Positions 3,043 to 35,536 of a DNA stretch of 36,552 nt are shown here, one piece after another. The translations under genes and the position numbers were made by a program. Where the stretch lies: positions 1 through 36,552 of the forward strand of contig JAAZXC010000012.1 in NCBI GenBank assembly GCA_014240365.1, read 5' to 3'. A model generated the notes under the pieces. That model did no database searches. It was not told the origin of the DNA and was given only the letters and a program-made list of their open reading frames with translations. This DNA is from Acidimicrobiales bacterium. Its GTDB lineage: Bacteria; Actinomycetota; Acidimicrobiia; Acidimicrobiales; MedAcidi-G1. Within the stretch, counting starts at the first letter, position 1; every line of letters begins with the position of its first letter.

Positions 3043-4212
3043 ATGACCAACCGACCAGCCACCCACCTCCGCCGAACCACGGCACTGGCCTGTCTCCTGT
3101 GGGCGGCCATGGCCTTGCCGGCCGGGGCGGTAAAGGAGACCGAGTCGATACGCGATGCCCGCGATCGTCGCGAGTCAGCAAGGAACGAGGCCGCCTCAGC
3201 CGCCGAGGCCCTCGAACTGGTGGCCGCCGAGGATGACCAGGTCTCCGATGCCCTGCATGCCCTGGACGATGCCGTATCGCTGCAGGAGGCCCGGATCACC
3301 GCAGCACGACAGGCCATCGAGGCCGCCGAGTCCGAGGCCACCCTGCGCTGGGTCCAGGCCGACCAGGTGGCCGCCGAGGTAGTTCAACTGCGGCGGAGGA
3401 TCCAGGAGCTGGCCGTGGACGTGTACATATCGCGAATGAGGCCGGGAATCCTGCTTGAGTCCGAAGACCTGACTCTCGGCATCCGCCGTGCTGCGATTCT
3501 CAATGCGGTGACAGGCGACCGGGGCGACCTCGTGGATCGGCTCCGTGCCCTGGAGTCCGACCTGGAGGACATTGCACTCTCGGCGGATGATGCGATCACC
3601 GATGCGCAGATACGACAGCGGGAACTGGAGTCCTCGATCCTCGTACTGGATCGGAGGATCGCTGCGAAGGAGGACGTGAAGTCCGAACTGGATGATCGGA
3701 TACGGACCTACGAGGCCGAGATCAAGCAGTTCGAACGCGACCAGTACGTCATGGCGATCCTCATCGAGAACCTGATCGCCGAGGAGCTCCGCAACTCAGC
3801 GCCGGACCTGACCAAGGAATCCGGCCAGGGCTTCATCATGCCCATGGAAGGCAGGTTGGGGTCCAGGTTCGGCCCTCGGAAGCACCCGATCTTCGGGACC
3901 ATGCGTCAGCACAATGGCGTGGACATCAGTTGCGTCAGGGGGCAGCCGATCTGGGCGGCGAAAGCCGGCAAGGTCCTGTTCGCCGGCTGGCAGAACGGCT
4001 ACGGAAACGTCGTGCTGATCGAGCACGAGGGACCGGTGGTAACCGTGTACGCCCACCAGCAGGAGGTCAACGTGTCGAGCGGCTACAACATCGACAAGGG
4101 GGAGGTGCTGGGCAGGTGTGGCTCCACCGGTTGGTCAACCGGCCCCCACCTGCACTTCGAACTCCGCTCAGGTGGCGAGGCCAAGGACCCGATGATCGTC
4201 CTTCCGGGCTGA
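3043..4212 (+). CDS. Secreted coiled-coil M23 family peptidase (EnvC/LytM-like)
   Basis: The predicted product is 389 residues. A basic N-terminus and hydrophobic stretch (ALACLLWAAMALPAGA) form a signal peptide. A long Ala/Glu/Arg-rich heptad-type region (about residues 35-255) is a coiled coil. The C-terminus is an M23 (LytM) domain: GSRFGPRKHP, then HNGVD (His290, Asp294) and HLHFE (His369/His371), the zinc ligands and active site of glycyl-glycine-type endopeptidases. Two cysteines inside the M23 domain (DISCVRG, GRCGSTG) could form a disulfide. The layout matches EnvC/RipA-like murein hydrolases or activators that act in cell separation outside the membrane. ATG 3043 was chosen because the signal peptide follows directly; the open frame itself begins at 2731. 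It is divergent from the CoA-transferase and convergent with hppA. Confidence 0.9.
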   Translation: MTNRPATHLRRTTALACLLWAAMALPAGAVKETESIRDARDRRESARNEAASAAEALELVAAEDDQVSDALHALDDAVSLQEARITAARQAIEAAESEATLRWVQADQVAAEVVQLRRRIQELAVDVYISRMRPGILLESEDLTLGIRRAAILNAVTGDRGDLVDRLRALESDLEDIALSADDAITDAQIRQRELESSILVLDRRIAAKEDVKSELDDRIRTYEAEIKQFERDQYVMAILIENLIAEELRNSAPDLTKESGQGFIMPMEGRLGSRFGPRKHPIFGTMRQHNGVDISCVRGQPIWAAKAGKVLFAGWQNGYGNVVLIEHEGPVVTVYAHQQEVNVSSGYNIDKGEVLGRCGSTGWSTGPHLHFELRSGGEAKDPMIVLPG

Positions 4213-11784: not shown

Positions 11785-13047
11785 TCAGGCCAGCAGCGCC
11801 ACGAGGAGGCCCCGGAGTCGGGTCGGGTCGGTGCTGCCACAGAGCTCGCGGGCGCTGTGCATCGCCAGTTGGGCTACCCCGAGGTCAACCGTCCGCATGC
11901 CCAGGACAGCGGCGGTAGCCGGCCCGATCGTGGATCCGCAGGACATGTCGGATCGACTCACGAACGACTGGAGCTCGACACCCGCCTGTTCAGCGGCCAA
12001 CCGGACGATCCCGGCGCCGATTGCGTCCGTGGCATACCGCTCCCGTGCGTTGAACTTCAGGACCGGACCGCCATCAAGGAGGATCCGGTGTTCGGGATCG
12101 TGACGGTCCGGATAGTTCGGATGGGTGGCGTGGGCTCCATCCACCGACAGGACGAGCGAATCCCCGACCGGACGGGCGTCAAGGCCCACGAATCGCCGGA
12201 GGGTCCGTTCCAGTAGGGGACCGGCTGCGCCCGTGGTCGAGACGCTTCCGACCTCCTCATGGTCGAACAGGGCCAGTACCGGTACTGCGCCGTGGGCCTC
12301 GGCGACGGCGATCAGCGCCTCGGTTCCGGCATGGCAGGAGAGAAGGTTGTCGATTCTGGGTGCACTGACCATGTCGTCGTGGATCCCGACGAGCCGTGAG
12401 GGCATCAGGTCGTGGAACATCACGTCGAAGGCCAGGACATCGCCGGGATCCACCCCTGCCGAGGCCGCCGCCATGGCTGCGAAGTCCCCGTCCCTGGCAT
12501 CTCCGGTCCCCAGGACGGGGGAGAGGTGCACCTGTGGGTTCAGGACCAGTCCCTTGTCGTTCACCCCACGGTCCAGGTGGACCGCCAGCTGCGGGATCCT
12601 GGCCACTGGACGGTCGTCGCGCACCAGCACCACGCGTGTGCCCGCTCCGCCTCGTACAACAAGACGACCCGAGAACCCGAGGTCACGGTCCAGCCAGGAA
12701 TTCAAGAGGGCACCGCCGTAGACCTCCACGCCGACCTGGCGGTATCCGACAGATGATCGGTCGGGGTTCGGCTTCAGGCGCAGGTTGGGGCTGTCGGTGT
12801 GCGCCCCGACGATCCTGAGGGGTGCCTCGGCGGAGCGTCCCTCGTCAGCCCACGCAACGAGGGCGCCGCCGGACCTGAGGAAGTGGCGGCCTGGCACCGG
12901 TGGGGGGTCGTCCATGCCCAACTCTGTGAATCCGGCAGCTGCGAGGCGTAACGCAGCCTCCTCAACGGCGTGGTACGGGCTCGGTGAGGAATCGATGAAA
13001 CGGCACAGATCCAGTGCCGAAGAGGTGTCGGTGACGGGCATTGCCAT
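11785..13047 (-). CDS. apeB: M18 family (aspartyl-type) aminopeptidase
   Basis: The 420-residue protein matches the M18 metallo-aminopeptidase family, which removes N-terminal residues (often acidic) from peptides in the cytoplasm. Visible motifs are SPSPYHAV at the N-terminus, VGAHTDSPNLRLKP (a zinc-ligand His at about residue 83), the catalytic and zinc acids in ALFDHEEVGS, RIDNLLSC, and the C-terminal AQLAMHSARE with the last zinc-ligand His. The length agrees with the family (about 420-430). The start was set at ATG 13047, because GGAGAG (13056-13061 on the plus strand as CTCTCC) lies 8 bases ahead of it; the frame is open to 13089. It is divergent from gltB. Confidence 0.93.
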   Translation of the reverse strand: MAMPVTDTSSALDLCRFIDSSPSPYHAVEEAALRLAAAGFTELGMDDPPPVPGRHFLRSGGALVAWADEGRSAEAPLRIVGAHTDSPNLRLKPNPDRSSVGYRQVGVEVYGGALLNSWLDRDLGFSGRLVVRGGAGTRVVLVRDDRPVARIPQLAVHLDRGVNDKGLVLNPQVHLSPVLGTGDARDGDFAAMAAASAGVDPGDVLAFDVMFHDLMPSRLVGIHDDMVSAPRIDNLLSCHAGTEALIAVAEAHGAVPVLALFDHEEVGSVSTTGAAGPLLERTLRRFVGLDARPVGDSLVLSVDGAHATHPNYPDRHDPEHRILLDGGPVLKFNARERYATDAIGAGIVRLAAEQAGVELQSFVSRSDMSCGSTIGPATAAVLGMRTVDLGVAQLAMHSARELCGSTDPTRLRGLLVALLA

Positions 13048-21027: not shown

Positions 21028-22398
21028 GTGACGCCACAGCGCCTTCTCATCATGGTCGGGTTGCCCCTGGGGCTTCTGATAGCCCTGCTGTCGCCGGCGT
21101 GGACGGCCTACGACGAGTTCACCCACTTCGCCCGTGTGGTCGACATGGCGCAGGGAAACCTCGAACCGGCCCGGACGCCGGAAGGAGTCGGATCGGTGAT
21201 CCCGTCGGCCTACCGGGAGGCCACCGACGAGATCATCCTCGACCATCAGGCAGGGCGCCCGCCCTGGACGCCAACCTCCGTCAGGGCCCTGCTCGGTTAC
21301 CGACCCGATGGCAGCACCGTGTTCGTGGATACCCGCCCGACCACAGCGTCAAGCCCACTCGGCTACCTGCCTGCAACGCTGGGGGCACTGGTGCCGGTGG
21401 CGGTCGGCGCACCCGGTGTCGTAGTGCTCTGGGCCGGCCGTCTGGCGTCCCTGGCCGCCTACCTGCTCCTGGCCGCATGGGCCGTGCGCACAGCGGCCGC
21501 CTTTCGCTGGTCGATTGCCATTGCGGCGACCATCCCGCTGAACCTGGCGCTTGCGGCATCGGTCTCCCCGGATGGGTTGACCATCGCCGCCGTGCTGTTG
21601 GCGGTGGCCATGTGGACCCGGGTGGAGGGGGGAGGCGACGTTGCACTCCCGGCACTGATCGCGTCCAGCGGGTTGCTGGCGTTGGCCAAGCCGCCCTATT
21701 TCCTTGTACTCGGCCTGTTCGTGGCCTCTGCTCTCATCGAGCGCACGGCCGGTCGCATCCGAGCCGCCTGCGTTGCCGGCGCAGGCCTCGTGGTCGGCCT
21801 GGCGACGACCCTGATCAACTCAGGCGACAACTACCAGCCCGTCACCACCACGATGCTCCGAAGGATCGACTACAACCCTGACCTCCAGATGGACCATCTC
21901 AGGGGTGACGTTCCGGGCTTCCTGTGGGCCACCGCGGACACCTGGATCACGGAGTACCGGGTCTACGTGCAGGGATGGTTTAGGCAGCTGGGATTCTGGG
22001 AGGCTGACATGGCATCGGTTATGCCATGGGCCTTCGTGGTCATTCTGGCCGTGTCGCTCCTGATCCTGGACGGCGACGACATGGACCGCCTCTCGGGAGT
22101 GCGCCGCACCATCGTCGCCATGGGAGTGGCCGGTCTGGTGATCGCCATGTACGCAGCCAGTTTCGTCTACTTCACGGACCAGCCGGACTACGACCACATC
22201 GGCTTCCAGATGGCCCGGTACTCGGTGCCCCTCGCAGTGCTGGCCTTCATCGCATGGTCACCACGTGCCCTGATCTGGCCGGCACGACGTCTTGGCCGCC
22301 GTTTCGCCCTCGTTGGGGTGGTCGGGGTCCCGCTGGTGGCCGTGGGCGCCTCGCTGGTGACCTGGTTGTGGACAGGAGCCAACACGGAGTTGGGCTGA
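21028..22398 (+). CDS. DUF2142 polytopic membrane protein (GT-C-like)
   Basis: The 456-residue protein has about ten hydrophobic segments. The first helix is followed by AWTAYDEFTHFARVVDMAQG, the acidic first-loop motif (P/A-x-D-E-x-x-H) of DUF2142 and related GT-C transferases, which use polyprenyl-phosphate sugars. A TTASSPLGYLPATLGA segment and a central AKPPYFLVLG are also typical. The family is often encoded among polysaccharide genes and is presumed to be a glycosyltransferase or glycan-related membrane protein; this is inference. The start is GTG at 21028, apparently leaderless. It is convergent with the AftD-like gene, with 9 bases between the stop codons. Confidence 0.85.
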   Translation: MTPQRLLIMVGLPLGLLIALLSPAWTAYDEFTHFARVVDMAQGNLEPARTPEGVGSVIPSAYREATDEIILDHQAGRPPWTPTSVRALLGYRPDGSTVFVDTRPTTASSPLGYLPATLGALVPVAVGAPGVVVLWAGRLASLAAYLLLAAWAVRTAAAFRWSIAIAATIPLNLALAASVSPDGLTIAAVLLAVAMWTRVEGGGDVALPALIASSGLLALAKPPYFLVLGLFVASALIERTAGRIRAACVAGAGLVVGLATTLINSGDNYQPVTTTMLRRIDYNPDLQMDHLRGDVPGFLWATADTWITEYRVYVQGWFRQLGFWEADMASVMPWAFVVILAVSLLILDGDDMDRLSGVRRTIVAMGVAGLVIAMYAASFVYFTDQPDYDHIGFQMARYSVPLAVLAFIAWSPRALIWPARRLGRRFALVGVVGVPLVAVGASLVTWLWTGANTELG

Positions 22399-22407
22399 CC
22401 GGGGCCC

Positions 22408-25400
22408 TCAGGCGGAACGGTGTTCGACCAGGGCCTGGAGTGCGCCGGCGGCGAGGCACACGATGGCCACGACGCCCAGTACGTGGTAGCCCTCGAAGAA
22501 GAGCGGCCAGACGAAGTCCCGGGGATGGCGGAAGCGGATCTGCTCGATGGCGATAAGCACAGCGGCGGACCCCATTGCCACGGCGGCCAGGAGCGGCATG
22601 GTCCGACGGTAGATCGAACCGCGGAGGGCCAGCGTCGTGGCGAGCCCGACCACTACGGCAGCGAGGTGCCACGACGGAAGGTTCACCGCCGAGAAGACTG
22701 CGGCCAGTGCGCCCACGGCAACGGCCCGGCCGTCGGATACAACGCGTCCCCTCCTGCGGGGATCTTCGAACACGGGTGACTCCGGTGCCGGTGGTCCGGT
22801 GTCGCTGCGACCTCTGGCCGCAACCAGAAGGCATGTCAGGGCCGCCACGAACGAAGCCCACAGGCCGAGCCAGACCGTTGACTGTGGTGCCCAGACGAGA
22901 CGCAGGGAGGTCCGTCCGGCGTCAGGCGGTGTCACCATCCAACCGTTGGCGAAGCCGTCCACGAGCCTTGGCGGACCATGATCCAGGCCGTTGTCATTCT
23001 GGAGGTGCCAGCCGGCGCTGAGGCTCTGGCCCAGCACCAGCCAGTAGGGGCCCGTGGCGCCCTCGACGGTGAGGAGGATCTCGGTCCGGTCCATCTTCTC
23101 GACGCTCAGGACCGGGGTGTCGGTGCTGGTGCCCGCGACCTCGAGGAAAGCCGATGTGAGGACCAGACGATCCAGGTCGAGCAACGTGTCAGCACCTGCA
23201 GCGGCCACGATCCTGTGCTCGCCTTCGGCCAACTCCAGGGCGGGACCACACGGTGCCAGGGTCAGGGACCTCCTTGAGAATCCATCGGCGGTCGACCCGG
23301 AGATGCGAACGGAGACAGGTCGGCCGTCCACCCGGACGAGGTCCTCACGACAACCGGTATCGATCCACCGGGGTCGCTCCGGGAAGTCGAATCCGTCGGA
23401 TACCTCCACGATGGCCACGGGCAGGACGTCGGGGAGGCCGGAGTACCAGTTCATGGTTCGACGCTCGACAACCTCGTCGATGCGCAGCGTCAGGGAACGT
23501 CCGGTTGTGTCGGCGATGTCGAGATCGATATCCACGAGGTCCCCGGGCACCCGAAGCACTCCCGGGAGGGTGGATCGGCCGACTGCCACCCCGTCTACAA
23601 GGACCGTGATCACACTCGGCGCCGAGTGCAGTCCATCGGCGCGGTAGGTGAACGCCAGGTTCGAGAATGTGCGTGGCTCCGTGTGCGTGATCGTGACCGC
23701 CTGTCCGTTCTGTGGCCCGATGGGCGGCTGCCAGGCGGTGGTGGGGTCATCATCGAAAGCGGCCCGGCCGCGCGAGACCAGGTCGCCTGCGAGGAAGGCC
23801 GTGGCCCGGACCGTCGGCGTGTCGGCGATATCCAGGAGGGAGTCGTCTGCGTGGGCGGACCAGCGGGCTTCTCCCCGGACTTGGAAGGTACGGGCCCATG
23901 GCAGGTGAAGCGTCCGGTCGATGGATCGTTCGGATTCTGGGCGAATGGGATCCCGTGGATCCGAGCGTTGCCTGGTGAGGACCACCACCAGGTCGGCACC
24001 GGTGTCGCTACCGAGGACCTTCGTGAGGTCGTCGGGAAGCAGGATCGTCTCATCGGCGACCACGCCGTCAACGACCACCTCGGCGAACCCGACGCCTGTC
24101 ACCCCGGCGTAGTGGTCCAGCCGACCGACGTCGGTGCCTCGGATCTCCAGGACCAGGACCCGCACGTCGGTTCCGGGAAGGTCGACTACCTGTCCGGGTG
24201 CGGCTCGGGATGTGGCATCCAGAACCACGTCCATGACGCGGTCGTCGAGGTGGATCCGAAGGTCGGTGATCCACCTGTTCTGTCCCTGCGACCTGGCCTG
24301 CACGAAGGTCAGGTTCTGGACCGGCGAGGGTTCGTCGAGCGTCAGGGTGAGGTGTTCGCCGACGACGTCGTTGAAGGCTCCGACGCTCCATGCCGTGTCC
24401 AGGTGGCCGTCGACGGCGTGGAACGGCTTGTCTCCGGGGGTGAAGGTCACCGGGTTGCCGTAGCCCGAGGCGTCGACGCGTATGCCTGTCTGGCTTGCCA
24501 CGCTGAGCGTCCCCGGTCGTACAGGCAGCACGTCGAGGCGCTGGTCCGAGAGGTCGACGCCGTGGGCCTCCTCGTCCTGGCGCTCGGTGTAGCCGGTGGT
24601 CTCCCTGATGGTTCCCCAACGCCGTCCCTGCAGCCGGTTCGTATCCGTGATGATCAGCAGGGAACCGTTACCCGACGACGACGCCACGAGGCCCGGATCG
24701 TGCGAGATCGATGCGCTGAAGAGGACGGGTCTACCAGGCTCGAGAAGCCCCTCGCCGGCTGCGGCCACGATGCCGTCGGCATCTCCGGAGATGACAATGC
24801 TCCGGGCTGGGTCGGCAAGGCGCAGGATCGGCTGGGCTTCGAGTACCGGCAGAACAATGGCGGGTGCCGGATGCTGAGAACCGACCGGCCGCGACAGGGT
24901 GTGCTGGTCCAGTAGCGGCCTTTCCGGGCCCGCCACGTTGGGTGAAGGGGTTCCGAACGGGACTGCCGGCCCGAAGCCGGAGGCGTCACGCAGTTCAGCC
25001 CAGAGGTCGTCAGGGCGGGGCGTGCGGAAACGCTCAAACTGCAGGTCCGACCTCAGGACGACATCGCCCACACCCATCAGGCGGGCCAGTGGGGCCAGGC
25101 CATCCGAATCCAGCCTGCCTTCCTGGAGCTCTGTGTCCAGAGCCACCAGCAGGGCTGCCGAGGCTGGCGAACCCTGTGGGATGAGCTCCCGTGCCGCGTA
25201 GGGGCGGTCCATGAGTCCAGGCAGTACCGGGTCGCCCGAGTTTCCCCACCGGTAGGCGGCGAAGTCGGACCCGGGCAACTCAAGGACACGTGTGTCCGGT
25301 CCGCTGGCTTCCAGATGTGCGGCGGCCTCGTGCCAGTAGCCGGGGATCTCCTCGGGTCGCTGGACGAGGCTGCCAAGCATCTCCCCCTGCCATAGAGGCG

Positions 25401-27883: not shown

Positions 27884-29293
27884 ATGTTGTTTCCCACCAT
27901 CACCTTCGCTGTCTTCATGACCCTCGTGCTAGCGGTGCACACGGTGCTACTGCACCGGCCGACTGCATGGAAGGCGACGATGCTGGTGGCCAGCTACGCC
28001 TTCTACGGGTGGTGGGACTGGCGCTTCCTGTCACTGATCTGGATCTCGACGATTGTGGACTTCCTCGCGGGTCGCGCCATCCACTCCTCCTCGGATCCCG
28101 GGCGCCGCCGCCTCTACCTGTGGATCAGCCTCGGCACGAACCTCTCGATGCTGGGGTTCTTCAAGTACGCGGGCTTCTTCGTTGATTCATTCGTCGGAAT
28201 GCTCGGCGACCTCGGTCTCGAGGTGTCCGCGGGGCCGCTGGGGATAATCCTCCCGGTCGGAATCAGCTTCTACACGTTCCAGACGATGTCCTACTCAATC
28301 GACGTGCACAGGCGCGTCCTGGAGCCGACGGACAGCCTCCTGGACTTCGCCCTGTTCGTGGGCTTCTTCCCGCAGTTGGTGGCCGGTCCGATCGTGAGGG
28401 CCAGGGACTTCCTCTTTCAGCTGTCATCCAACGACCGCTCACCGATCGACACAACCCGCGCCATACGACTCATCCTGGGTGGCCTCTTCAAGAAGATGGT
28501 CCTCGCCGACATCCTGGCGACCAGCCTCGTGGACGGTGTCTTCGCAGATCCCGGTGGGTCCACCGGCCTCGAGACGCTTCTGGCCGTCTATGGCTACGCA
28601 CTCCAGATCTACGCTGACTTCAGCGGCTACAGCGACATCGCCATCGGGATCGCCCTGCTCCTGGGATTCCGATTCCCGGTGAACTTCGACCAGCCCTACC
28701 GGGCTCTCAGCCTCAGCGACTTCTGGCGGCGCTGGCACATCAGCCTCTCCTCCTGGTTGCGCGACTACCTGTACATCGGGCTCGGTGGCAACCGGCGGGG
28801 GAGGGCCCGTACGGCACGCAACCTGCTGGCCACCATGCTCCTTGGCGGGCTCTGGCACGGCGCCGGTTGGACGTTCATCCTCTGGGGAGCGATCCACGGT
28901 GTCGGGCTGGTAATCGAACGCTGGATCACTCAGCGGTGGCTCTCAGCTGCACCGGGAAGGGTGGCTCGCCTGTTTCGTTCTCTGGTGACGTTCCACCTTG
29001 TATGTGCCGCCTGGGTCTTCTTCCGTTCGGTGGACGTGGAACGCGCCATAGAGGTGTTCGCAGCACTGGGGGGATCGTGGACATCGGCTCCCGGAATGTC
29101 CGCCGCGGTCGTCCTGCTACTGCTCGTGGGTCTCGTGACCCAGGTGGTCACCCCCGGCCGCCTCGACAGCCTCTGGGACCGGGCCGCACACCTACCGGTG
29201 GTGGTACAGGCTGCAGCCATCACCCTGGCGATCCTGTTGTTCGATGCACTGGGGCCCGACGGTGTGGCCCCGTTCATCTACTTCGCCTTCTAG
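27884..29293 (+). CDS. AlgI-like membrane-bound O-acyltransferase (MBOAT)
   Basis: The 469-residue polytopic protein is an MBOAT acyltransferase close to AlgI/DltB-type enzymes. Visible signatures are FYGWWDWRFL, ILPVGISFYTFQTMSYSIDVHR, FPQLVAGPIVRA, YADFSGYSDIAIGIALLLGFRFPVNF, the DFWRRWHISLSSWLRDYLYIGLGG block, and the catalytic His in GGLWHGAGWTFILWGAIHG. These enzymes move acyl (usually acetyl) groups across the membrane to extracytoplasmic polysaccharides. No AlgJ/AlgX-type SGNH partner is next to it. ATG 27884 begins just before the first helix; an in-frame GTG at 27863 is the alternative. The gene ends with TAG. Confidence 0.92.
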   Translation: MLFPTITFAVFMTLVLAVHTVLLHRPTAWKATMLVASYAFYGWWDWRFLSLIWISTIVDFLAGRAIHSSSDPGRRRLYLWISLGTNLSMLGFFKYAGFFVDSFVGMLGDLGLEVSAGPLGIILPVGISFYTFQTMSYSIDVHRRVLEPTDSLLDFALFVGFFPQLVAGPIVRARDFLFQLSSNDRSPIDTTRAIRLILGGLFKKMVLADILATSLVDGVFADPGGSTGLETLLAVYGYALQIYADFSGYSDIAIGIALLLGFRFPVNFDQPYRALSLSDFWRRWHISLSSWLRDYLYIGLGGNRRGRARTARNLLATMLLGGLWHGAGWTFILWGAIHGVGLVIERWITQRWLSAAPGRVARLFRSLVTFHLVCAAWVFFRSVDVERAIEVFAALGGSWTSAPGMSAAVVLLLLVGLVTQVVTPGRLDSLWDRAAHLPVVVQAAAITLAILLFDALGPDGVAPFIYFAF

Positions 29294-29421: not shown

Positions 29422-29823
29422 TCACCCCATTGTCGTGCAGTGCAACGGTTGGACCACGACGCTGATCCGCTTGTCCAGCGGTTCGGCATCGTCGCGGGGG
29501 AAGGACTCCTCGCCCCGGTACTTGCGGGCCTGCGCGTCCAGCACCTCAAGTGCCCCGTCGTGTTCGAATGCGACGACGCGACCCCGTACCTCGAGGTAAC
29601 GCTCGTTGTCGGACGGGTCGGTGGCCGACATGGCGACACGGCCGTCTGCACACAGGTTGCGCCACTTCTGTCTGCCCTCCAGGTGGGGGAACCGGATGTG
29701 GGTGCCGTCGAAGTCGGCCCACACGGGGGAGACCTGGGGCTCACCCGAGGGTCCGATGGTGGCCACGTGCCAGATGGCGGGCAGGTCGAAAAGGTCCAGG
29801 TGGGTCTCGGGAATCAGGGTCAT
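29422..29823 (-). CDS. PPOX-fold (FDOR/pyridoxamine-5'-phosphate oxidase-like) oxidoreductase
   Basis: The 133-residue protein has the split-barrel flavin/F420-binding fold. Visible segments are WHVATIGPSGEPQVSPVWADFDGTHIRF, then GRQKWRNLCADGRVAMSATDP and YLEVRGRVVAFE. This is the organisation of small TIGR03618-like F420-dependent oxidoreductases common in actinobacteria. It is probably a cytosolic reductase using F420 or FMN, but the cofactor cannot be decided. The ATG has no Shine-Dalgarno sequence and lies 6 bases after TAGCGT. It lies 21 bases downstream of the CoA-transferase gene on the same strand. Confidence 0.85.
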   Translation of the reverse strand: MTLIPETHLDLFDLPAIWHVATIGPSGEPQVSPVWADFDGTHIRFPHLEGRQKWRNLCADGRVAMSATDPSDNERYLEVRGRVVAFEHDGALEVLDAQARKYRGEESFPRDDAEPLDKRISVVVQPLHCTTMG

Positions 29824-32430: not shown

Positions 32431-33018
32431 GTGCCCATATTCGCCTGCTTCGACGTCGAGACGACCGCTCTGGATCCGAAGGGCGGTCGGGTCATAGAGG
32501 TCGCCGTCGTCCGGATCCACGACGACGGAACCGTGGTGGGGGAGTGGAGCACGCTGGTCAATGCCGGGGTGGCCGACCTGGGCAGAACGGACATACATGG
32601 CATCCGGCGAACCTGGCTGGAGACCTCTCCGGCGTTCGCCACCATTGCCGGCGACCTGGCCCATGAACTCTCCGGTTGCGTGCCGGTGGCCCACAACGCC
32701 GGATTCGACGTCGGGTTCCTTCGTGCTGAATGGGACCGTGCCGGTCTGGGGGTTCTGGACCTCGTTGCCGTCGACACCCTCCGTATGGCCCGCCAACTCG
32801 GTTACCCGGGAAAACTCGGTCGCCTGGCCGAGGCGTTGGGGGTTCCACTGGTCGATGCACATCAGGCACTCGACGACACCAGGGCACTGGCCAGCGTCCT
32901 GGTCGCCCTGCTTGAGCGCGGGGGAGAACTCCCGTCCCCTCTGCCCGCCTTCTGGCCACCGCTGTTGACACCGACGCCTTCGGGCCAGGTGGCGTTGCGG
33001 CCCGCGCAGGTGGCCTGA
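32431..33018 (+). CDS. DnaQ-like DEDDh 3'-5' exonuclease
   Basis: The 195-residue protein begins with VPIFACFDVETTALDPKGG, the ExoI motif (Asp and Glu metal ligands). It continues with ExoII in VAHNAGFDVGFLRAEW and ends with HQALDDTRA, the ExoIII His and Asp. Together these give the DEDDh set of the DNA polymerase III epsilon/exonuclease family. Length and absence of extra domains fit a stand-alone proofreading-type or repair exonuclease rather than a fused helicase or polymerase subunit. The GTG start sits 6 bases after TACCGT; the frame is open upstream to 32266. The stop codon directly abuts the ATG of the L,D-transpeptidase gene. Confidence 0.9.
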   Translation: MPIFACFDVETTALDPKGGRVIEVAVVRIHDDGTVVGEWSTLVNAGVADLGRTDIHGIRRTWLETSPAFATIAGDLAHELSGCVPVAHNAGFDVGFLRAEWDRAGLGVLDLVAVDTLRMARQLGYPGKLGRLAEALGVPLVDAHQALDDTRALASVLVALLERGGELPSPLPAFWPPLLTPTPSGQVALRPAQVA

Positions 33019-33930: not shown

Positions 33931-34476
33931 TCAGTTCACCGAGGGGTCGGCCGGGTAGACCGCAAGGTGGCCGAGCAAGCCCGGCTGACGGGCGAGGACG
34001 ACCTGCCAGAGTTCCTCGGGGGAGGTCGTCAGGGCATCCTCCGGTAGCGCATCGACCACAATCCAGCCCCCTGCCGCCAGCTCGGCGTCGAGCTGGCCGG
34101 CTGACCAGCCCGAGTAGCCGGCGAACAGCCTGACCGGATCGACTCCCGGAAGTTCCTCGGGGCTGCGATGCAGGTCGACGACGCCGAGCTGGCCCAGGAG
34201 GGGGCTGAGGCCGTCGATTCCACCAGCCGGTCCGAGCGCCAGCCCTATGACCGAGTCCTCCGATACCGGACCGCCGTTGTGAAGCATCGACGGATAGGCC
34301 AGACGATCCGCCCACTGAGGGACGGCTTCGGCACCACCGACAAGGCGTGGCCGGTTCAGGACCACGCCAAGGGCACCGTCGTCGTTGTGCTCCAGGACCA
34401 GCACGACGGACCGGTGGAAGTTGGGATCCAGCAGTTCGGGAGTGGCCACGAGCAGCCGTGCCCTGGTGGATGTCAT
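33931..34476 (-). CDS. algH: AlgH/YqgE (UPF0301) family protein
   Basis: The 181-residue protein shows the UPF0301 pattern: LLVATPELLDPNFHRSVVLVLEHNDDGALGVVLNRP at the start, a central MLHNGGPVSEDSVIGLAL, and RLFAGYSGWSAGQLDAELAAGGWIVVDA near the C-terminus. Length is typical (about 185). The family is cytoplasmic; its biochemical function is unsettled, and the AlgH name comes from an alginate-regulation phenotype in Pseudomonas. Its ATG overlaps the stop of the upstream tyrosine recombinase gene (ATGA at 34473-34476), so translation of the two is coupled. Confidence 0.93.
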   Translation of the reverse strand: MTSTRARLLVATPELLDPNFHRSVVLVLEHNDDGALGVVLNRPRLVGGAEAVPQWADRLAYPSMLHNGGPVSEDSVIGLALGPAGGIDGLSPLLGQLGVVDLHRSPEELPGVDPVRLFAGYSGWSAGQLDAELAAGGWIVVDALPEDALTTSPEELWQVVLARQPGLLGHLAVYPADPSVN

Positions 34477-35486
34477 CCTTCGGCCCCCTCGAGGGCCTCG
34501 CCCAGCAGCGTGTTGGCTCCCGACCGGTTCAGCACTCCCACGAGCTCTCCGCCGGCCAGCTCCGTGTAGATGCCGGTGGTCTTGATCGTGGCATGGCCCA
34601 GGAGGCTCTGGATCACGTTCATCGGAACGGCGTCGGCGGCCAACTGCACGCCTGCCGTGTGGCGGAGGGAATGCAGTGACCGGTCGCGCAGGCCCGCCTC
34701 CCGGTTCAGTAGGCGTAGCCAGTAACGGAGACGTCCGTAGTTGAACCGGTCTCCGTCATTGGTGACGAACATGGGGTCCCCGGCGTCACTTGGGCCGAAC
34801 CTGTCGGTTCGTTCCTCCTGCCAGCGCTGTGTGGCCTCCACCAGCTCGTCGGAGAGGGGAAGGCGACGGATTCGACGGCCCTTGCCGACCACGTGGAGCA
34901 TCCAGTTGGCCCTGTCGTCTGCGTGTAGCAGGCGTTCCCTGGTCAACCAGCCCCGGTCGACTGTTGCCAACTCTGCGGCCCTCAGGCCCAGGACGGCAAG
35001 GTACGAACACATGGCCAGATCCCTGCTGGCCCAACGCACCCGTCCCTGGCCGTTATCTCGACTGGATGCCTCTGCGTAGAGATCCCGGATCTCGTCGGGC
35101 CGGTAGTACTCGGGATCGACCTGTGGGACGTCCAGGCGTGCCACCTTCCGGATCCTGGCGATGTCCGGTACCTGCTTCACGAGCCGGTCCGCTATGCAGA
35201 AGTCGAAGAATGACTTGAGCGCCGCAAGGGTCTGGTTCAACGTGGCCCGGGAGACCTCCGGATCGGATCGCATGGACCTGACTGTGTCCGTGAGTCCCGC
35301 CTGGTCGAGGCTGTCAGGTCCGAAGCCTCCCGGTCCGACGTCCATGTAGGACACCACCCGTCGGACTCCCTGGCCGTAGGCACGCACGGTGTGTATCGGC
35401 TTGTCCTCGTAGAGCGGTAGCCAGTGCAGCCACTCGTGGAAGACGGGCGGCATCTCGTCAGGTGTCGGTAGTGCTCTGTAGGCCAT
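34473..35486 (-). CDS. Tyrosine recombinase (Xer/phage-integrase family)
   Basis: The 337-residue protein has a SAM-like N-terminal core-binding domain (about residues 15-110) and a catalytic domain with the full set of active residues: Arg169 in LGLRAAEL, Lys202 in GKGRRIR, His272 and Arg275 in HSLRHTAG, His298 in LLGHATIKTT and the nucleophile Tyr307 in GIYTEL. It cuts and rejoins DNA through a 3'-phosphotyrosine. No other phage or mobile-element gene is nearby. Length is slightly above that of XerC/XerD (about 300). A dif-like palindrome lies 22 bases upstream of its start, and a TATTAT sequence inside it could be its -10 box. The downstream algH gene overlaps by four bases. Confidence 0.92.
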   Translation of the reverse strand: MAYRALPTPDEMPPVFHEWLHWLPLYEDKPIHTVRAYGQGVRRVVSYMDVGPGGFGPDSLDQAGLTDTVRSMRSDPEVSRATLNQTLAALKSFFDFCIADRLVKQVPDIARIRKVARLDVPQVDPEYYRPDEIRDLYAEASSRDNGQGRVRWASRDLAMCSYLAVLGLRAAELATVDRGWLTRERLLHADDRANWMLHVVGKGRRIRRLPLSDELVEATQRWQEERTDRFGPSDAGDPMFVTNDGDRFNYGRLRYWLRLLNREAGLRDRSLHSLRHTAGVQLAADAVPMNVIQSLLGHATIKTTGIYTELAGGELVGVLNRSGANTLLGEALEGAEG

Positions 35487-35500
35487 GGTCCCCGAGATCG

Positions 35501-35513
35501 TGCATTCAATGCA
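35501..35513. repeat. Perfect palindrome next to the dif-like site
   Basis: TGCATT, one C, AATGCA form a perfect 6-bp inverted repeat, 14 bases from the recombinase start codon. It overlaps the left arm of the dif-like site by five bases. It may be an accessory protein-binding site or operator. Confidence 0.6.
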
Positions 35514-35536
35514 TGATAATATCCATTATCTTGACA
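35509..35536. other. dif-like recombination site upstream of the recombinase gene
   Basis: The core GATAATATCCATTATC (35515-35530) is an inverted repeat, GATAAT-N4-ATTATC, an A+T-rich island in G+C-rich DNA. Laid on the E. coli dif layout (11-base arm, 6-base spacer, 11-base arm) it gives arms 35509-35519 and 35526-35536 around TATCCA. The ATAA and TTAT ends next to the spacer agree with dif, while the outer arms diverge. On the minus strand it also contains TATTAT (35516-35521), usable as a -10 box for the recombinase gene, so binding by the recombinase could repress its own gene. Site identity is inference. Confidence 0.5.

Follow-up and report, generated by a model that had tools for sequence, protein, structure and literature searches.

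A predicted single-recombinase Xer system with a dif-like site in marine Acidimicrobiales

Why should a tyrosine recombinase gene in an actinobacterium be preceded by a palindrome laid out like dif? The question arises from the window, a stretch of 36,552 nucleotides of an Acidimicrobiales genome (contig JAAZXC010000012.1) that was analysed as a whole. In Xer systems, recombinase protomers occupy the two arms of dif, the two dif sites of a chromosome dimer synapse, and strands are exchanged across the centre; FtsK controls the reaction, reaching dif along a polar motif. Systems with a single recombinase have been described as XerS/difSL, XerH/difH, archaeal XerA and XerL of the Legionellales (PMC5357621, PMC9765430), and dif has been predicted across 66 actinobacteria, in genomes with XerC/XerD (PMC3025954). 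No earlier report of a single-recombinase system in actinobacteria or Acidimicrobiia was found in the literature searched, which covers few subscription journals. The preliminary description of the window proposed such a system. None of the refuting tests that it listed went against it, and sequence comparisons support it: no second Xer was found in near-complete genomes of the family, the site is conserved, and in relatives a polar motif reverses there. The gene (xer) and its 28-bp site thus very probably constitute a one-recombinase system for chromosome dimer resolution.

The recombinase and its genomic setting

The xer gene (34473..35486, minus strand) is an intact open reading frame with an ATG start and encodes 337 amino acids. 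Its product is the complete tyrosine recombinase that had been claimed: profile searches match both PF00589 (Phage_integrase) and PF02899, and the catalytic set R169, K202, H272, R275, H298 and Y307 is present in full. In an alignment of 22 orthologues, K202, H272, R275, H298 and Y307 are invariant and R169 is at least 90% conserved. The AlphaFold model (pLDDT 76, pTM 0.50) agrees with the Xer/Cre fold, its domain arrangement being too uncertain for reading the C-terminal contacts that control cleavage. The protein (P0001) scores below the cut-offs of the XerS equivalog model (44.4 bits, cut-off 267), the XerA equivalog model (86.5 bits, cut-off 220) and the XerC model (119.7 bits, cut-off 335), and among the profile matches XerH ranks below both XerA and XerD. 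The window comes from an uncultured marine family, f1, whose relatives include MedAcidi-G1 and further marine assemblies of the Acidimicrobiales. A tree built without XerH sequences joins the f1 proteins, with moderate support (~0.87), to Xer-like proteins from f16, f19, f21, f36 and part of f42; they stand apart from the XerC and XerD groups as well as from the integrases.

All f1 genomes are fragmented, which leaves a small chance that a second recombinase was missed. The window genome is 95% complete and holds one Xer-like gene only; its one other PF00589 protein is a phage-type integrase (contig C175, 1003-2133) that falls far from Xer in the tree. Orthologues of xer occur in about 30 of the 48 f1 genomes, and several f1 metagenome-assembled genomes have no xer gene altogether. 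In the seven f1 genomes that are at least 90% complete, the xer product is the sole PF00589 match, and no canonical XerC/XerD pair was found in the near-complete, fragmented assemblies of the family. When scored with the XerD model, sister genomes in the order and class each yield two matches, the first at 277-345 bits (XerD) and the second at 171-286 bits (XerC); the best score in f1 genomes is 129 bits (cut-off 329.6). XerC/XerD and a canonical dif are both present in the sister genomes. A search for the dif that is canonical in actinobacteria, GATAATNNACATTATGTCAAG, with as many as 3 mismatches allowed, found none in 12 of the 14 f1 genomes tested; the two 3-mismatch matches, in genus g4, are weak, with a broken palindrome. 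FtsK with a gamma domain is encoded in 43 of the 48 f1 genomes and in 23/23 of the good ones. One relative (G013) carries a second recombinase copy, 36% identical (C32:154-1182), perhaps on a mobile element.

Downstream, the end of xer is overlapped by algH (DUF179, PF02622; 33931..34476, minus strand), which adjoins xer in most f1 loci and lies within ~1 kb of it in the remaining ones. Since algH is conserved beside xer in relatives, xer looks like a stable chromosomal gene rather than a mobile element. This bears on the possibility, raised in the preliminary description, that recombinase and site together are an element integrated at dif, in a cell relying on another Xer system. Other bacteria are known to harbour elements that exploit dif (PMC5357621), and phages carry a copy of the present site (see below). 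However, the vertical conservation of xer beside algH, the lack of another Xer in seven near-complete genomes and the lack of a flanking second site copy in the window genome make an integrated element highly improbable.

Sequence and conservation of the dif-like site

The site spans 28 bp (35509..35536, minus strand) and ends 22 bp before the xer ATG. In gene sense it reads TGTCAAGATAA-TGGATA-TTATCATGCAT, which on the plus strand is ATGCATGATAA-TATCCA-TTATCTTGACA, with the core GATAATATCCATTATC at 35515-35530. The gene-distal arm, TGTCAAGATAA (35526..35536, minus strand), follows the consensus T[GT]TVWAGATAA; the central spacer, TGGATA (35520..35525, minus strand), is 6 bp long at all loci; and the gene-proximal arm, TTATCATGCAT (35509..35519, minus strand), contains an invariant TTATC, its outer part being unlike the other arm. 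Written in dif layout, the palindrome first noticed before the recombinase is GATAA-N6-TTATC. Within the window, GATAAYNNNNRTTATC occurs once, and it occurs in none of 100 dinucleotide shuffles. When the 2.2-Mb genome was scanned with GATAATNNNCATTAT, allowing up to 2 mismatches, the window site was the only perfect match, so that the core is unique in the genome.

Among relatives, 31/31 complete orthologues examined have the site directly in front of the gene, always as GATAA-N6-TTATC. A search of 1 kb upstream at 26 loci found the two half-sites separated by 6 bases in 26/26, and none of the other spacings between 2 and 11 bases occurred. Immediately inside GATAA and TTATC, the paired bases are T..A at 16 loci, C..G at 13 and C..A at 2; changes at the inner edges of the two arms are thus mostly correlated. 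Further out, the arms are consistently unequal, the gene-distal T[GT]TVWA facing a different gene-proximal consensus. In many relatives (loci L011-L039) the gene-distal arm is preceded, ~10-30 bp upstream, by a GGATCCACC-like box, which may belong to the promoter of the divergent gene or serve as an accessory sequence. A second perfect palindrome, GATAAC-N4-GTTATC, is found in the relative G029 (C22:314294), 152 kb from its dif site.

The unequal arms might also be taken to mean that only one arm is bound by the window Xer and the other by a second protein, either unrecognised or integrase-like, as in a two-recombinase system, and some f1 genomes do carry further integrase-like proteins. Yet the seven near-complete genomes contain no other PF00589 protein, and the arms of difSL and difH are also unequal though one protein binds both (PMC5357621). 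A second partner is accordingly highly improbable, and because no other recombinase was found, a single protein presumably serves both arms.

Position at the predicted terminus

If the site functions as dif, it should lie where strand composition and polar motifs switch. Polarity was examined on seven contigs of relatives, 116-352 kb long. The cumulative GC-skew maximum is 9-30 kb from the site in 7/7 of them. The GC-skew switch sought at this locus is clear in the longest contig (352 kb), in which the best two-segment break (162 kb) nearly coincides with the site (162.25 kb); as a sole locator over the seven contigs, GC skew is suggestive but not significant against random site positions (combined p 0.11).

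Polar motifs place the site more closely. The E. coli KOPS, GGGNAGGG, is weakly polar here (166:102). When octamers were tallied by direction on the two arms, CGGGGGAG (106:5) and TGGGGGAG (87:2) proved strongly skewed towards the site, and together (C/T)GGGGGAG points towards the site 193 times and away from it 7 times in the seven contigs. The interval in which the motif reverses holds the site in 7/7 contigs, at a resolution of 1.5-4.9 kb, which is not base-level. Because the motif was first discovered with the site as reference, discovery was repeated leaving out one contig at a time: GGGGGAG came top in every round, and in the left-out contigs the reversal holds the site in five and lies within 1.8 kb of it in two. 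In contigs unused in discovery, motifs face the site in 8/9 cases (the window), 13/13 (G018), 7/7 (G016), 20/22 (G037) and 12/14 (G039); the last two weigh less, as their best reversal is ~0.5 kb off the site, which itself has a contig end nearby. Leave-one-out and held-out contigs thus agree on a KOPS-like reversal within ~2 kb of the site.

The window covers one side of the site, its own contig ending 1 kb past it. The preliminary description saw no terminus marker there, but 8 of 9 GGGGGAG motifs point at the site: those at 4098..4104, 12517..12523, 21628..21634, 28797..28803, 29725..29731, 32538..32544, 32920..32926 and 34018..34024 (all plus strand), the one at 25381..25387 (minus strand) alone facing away. 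We infer that the window genome behaves as its relatives do.

The positive control is G140, a complete genome from the same order that encodes XerC/XerD. It has a canonical dif core, GATAATGCACGTTCTGTCAAG, at 2,320,404, and the GGGGGAG motif reverses between 2,318.6 and 2,321.4 kb (178/207). Its Xer genes lie at 2,205 and 2,773 kb, so that dif there is far from both. From its polarity and from this control, (C/T)GGGGGAG is probably an FtsK loading sequence; nothing relevant that links GGGGGAG with FtsK was found in the literature searched, again with few subscription journals covered. Among other lineages with a related single recombinase, G297 (f16, C89) and G080 (f42, C15) have GATAA-N6-TTATC immediately before the gene and within the reversal interval. 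In G312 (f16, C30) the same palindrome is ~2.2 kb from the gene, and in G206 (f21, C15) CATAA-N6-TTATG is 4.5 kb from it, both within the reversal interval, which implies that the palindrome follows the terminus and not the promoter. The related recombinase of G268 (f19, C23) is away from the motif reversal, so linkage of gene and site is no rule for the whole clade; dif of that genome should lie elsewhere.

These positions weigh on the alternative that the palindrome only resembles dif and serves the recombinase gene as an autoregulatory operator or a promoter element, with the real dif elsewhere. In favour of this alternative, every f1 locus has the site ahead of xer (in the window, 22 bp from the ATG), and GATAAT is similar to a -10 hexamer. 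However, in G312 and G206 the site stands at the reversal even outside the promoter region of the recombinase, a symmetric operator has no need of consistently unequal arms, and a canonical dif was not found in most f1 genomes tested (12/14). Autoregulation by bound Xer could moreover coexist with dif function. An operator that only resembles dif, which the preliminary description had also considered, is therefore very unlikely.

Phage copies, proposed mechanism and relation to known systems

Viral contigs scanned with the f1 site consensus gave eight matches, six of them in one type of deep-ocean tailed phage, whose large terminase was confirmed with PHROGs. GATAA[CT]-N4-[AG]TTATC lies ~1.2-1.6 kb upstream of the terminase in 13/13 related phage contigs (terminase identity at least 88%, enough upstream sequence, some near-identical); palindromes with a rearranged core are rare in the phage contigs. 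One phage contig ends and another begins exactly at the dif-like site. The phage group comprises contigs L284, L285, L286, L288, L290, L289, L292, L295-L299, L301, L303, L306, L307 and L352. The phage copy suggests integration, or resolution of the phage genome, via the recombinase of putative hosts. The terminase was sought in 48 f1 genomes and no integrated copy was found, the one match being 27% identical; a search of the viral contigs for the Xer recombinase itself returned distant integrases only.

Binding, cleavage, FtsK loading and activation, and the resolution of dimers in the cell can be pictured for the single-recombinase system as follows. Each 11-bp arm of the 28-bp dif site would be bound by one of two protomers of the 337-residue Xer. 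On a dimeric chromosome, two such sites would synapse and the four protomers would swap strands across the 6-bp spacer, giving two monomers. FtsK, led by (C/T)GGGGGAG converging from both chromosome arms, would join the sites at the septum, and would probably activate cleavage through its gamma domain. Which strand is cut first is probably decided by the unequal arms.

Each known system shares part of this arrangement. XerS/difSL of streptococci and lactococci likewise combines one tyrosine recombinase, a site adjoining the gene, unequal arms and a link to FtsK (PMC5357621). However, difSL is 31 bp long with an 11-bp centre, as against 28 bp and 6 bp in f1, and the AIMS of Lactococcus are A-rich heptamers, whereas the f1 motif is G-rich (PMC5357621). 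XerH/difH of Helicobacter and Campylobacter is similar in its single recombinase, the nearness of site and gene, its dependence on FtsK and its fold, but XerH and the window Xer are only ~16-17% identical in structure alignments, and the arms and centre of difH are unlike those of the f1 site (PMC5357621). The dif sites of other Acidimicrobiia and actinobacteria with XerC/XerD are 28 bp long with the same GATAA-N6-TTAT core (Frankia alni, CACGCCGATAATGCACATTATGTCAAGT; PMC3025954), and the sister lineages share FtsK gamma and, in G140, the same polar motif. They differ from f1 in having two recombinases and a dif far from their genes, and the outer half of the right arm of their dif is different. 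XerL/dif of the Legionellales also pairs a single recombinase with a site exploited by a mobile element, yet in L. pneumophila dif and xerL are more than 400 kb apart (PMC9765430), compared with 22 bp in the window. Archaeal XerA/dif has a single recombinase too, and 5hxy is the best PDB match by both sequence and fold; XerA is nevertheless independent of FtsK (PMC5357621), whereas FtsK gamma is present throughout the good f1 genomes.

A wider reading, to which we give somewhat less than an even chance, is that within the Acidimicrobiia an undescribed single-Xer clade has replaced XerC/XerD in f1, f16, f21, part of f42 and perhaps f19, with the ancestral FtsK-orienting motif kept and, in f1, the gene next to dif; tailed marine phages would exploit the system through a copy of the site instead of an integrase. 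Apart from this wider reading, one bacterial order contains lineages with a two-protein system and lineages with a predicted one-protein system, seemingly using the same FtsK-orienting motif, so that the loss of a recombinase and the rewiring of dif are open to direct study. For these uncultured marine bacteria, the analysis predicts a dif and an FtsK-orienting motif and points to possible sites of phage attachment.
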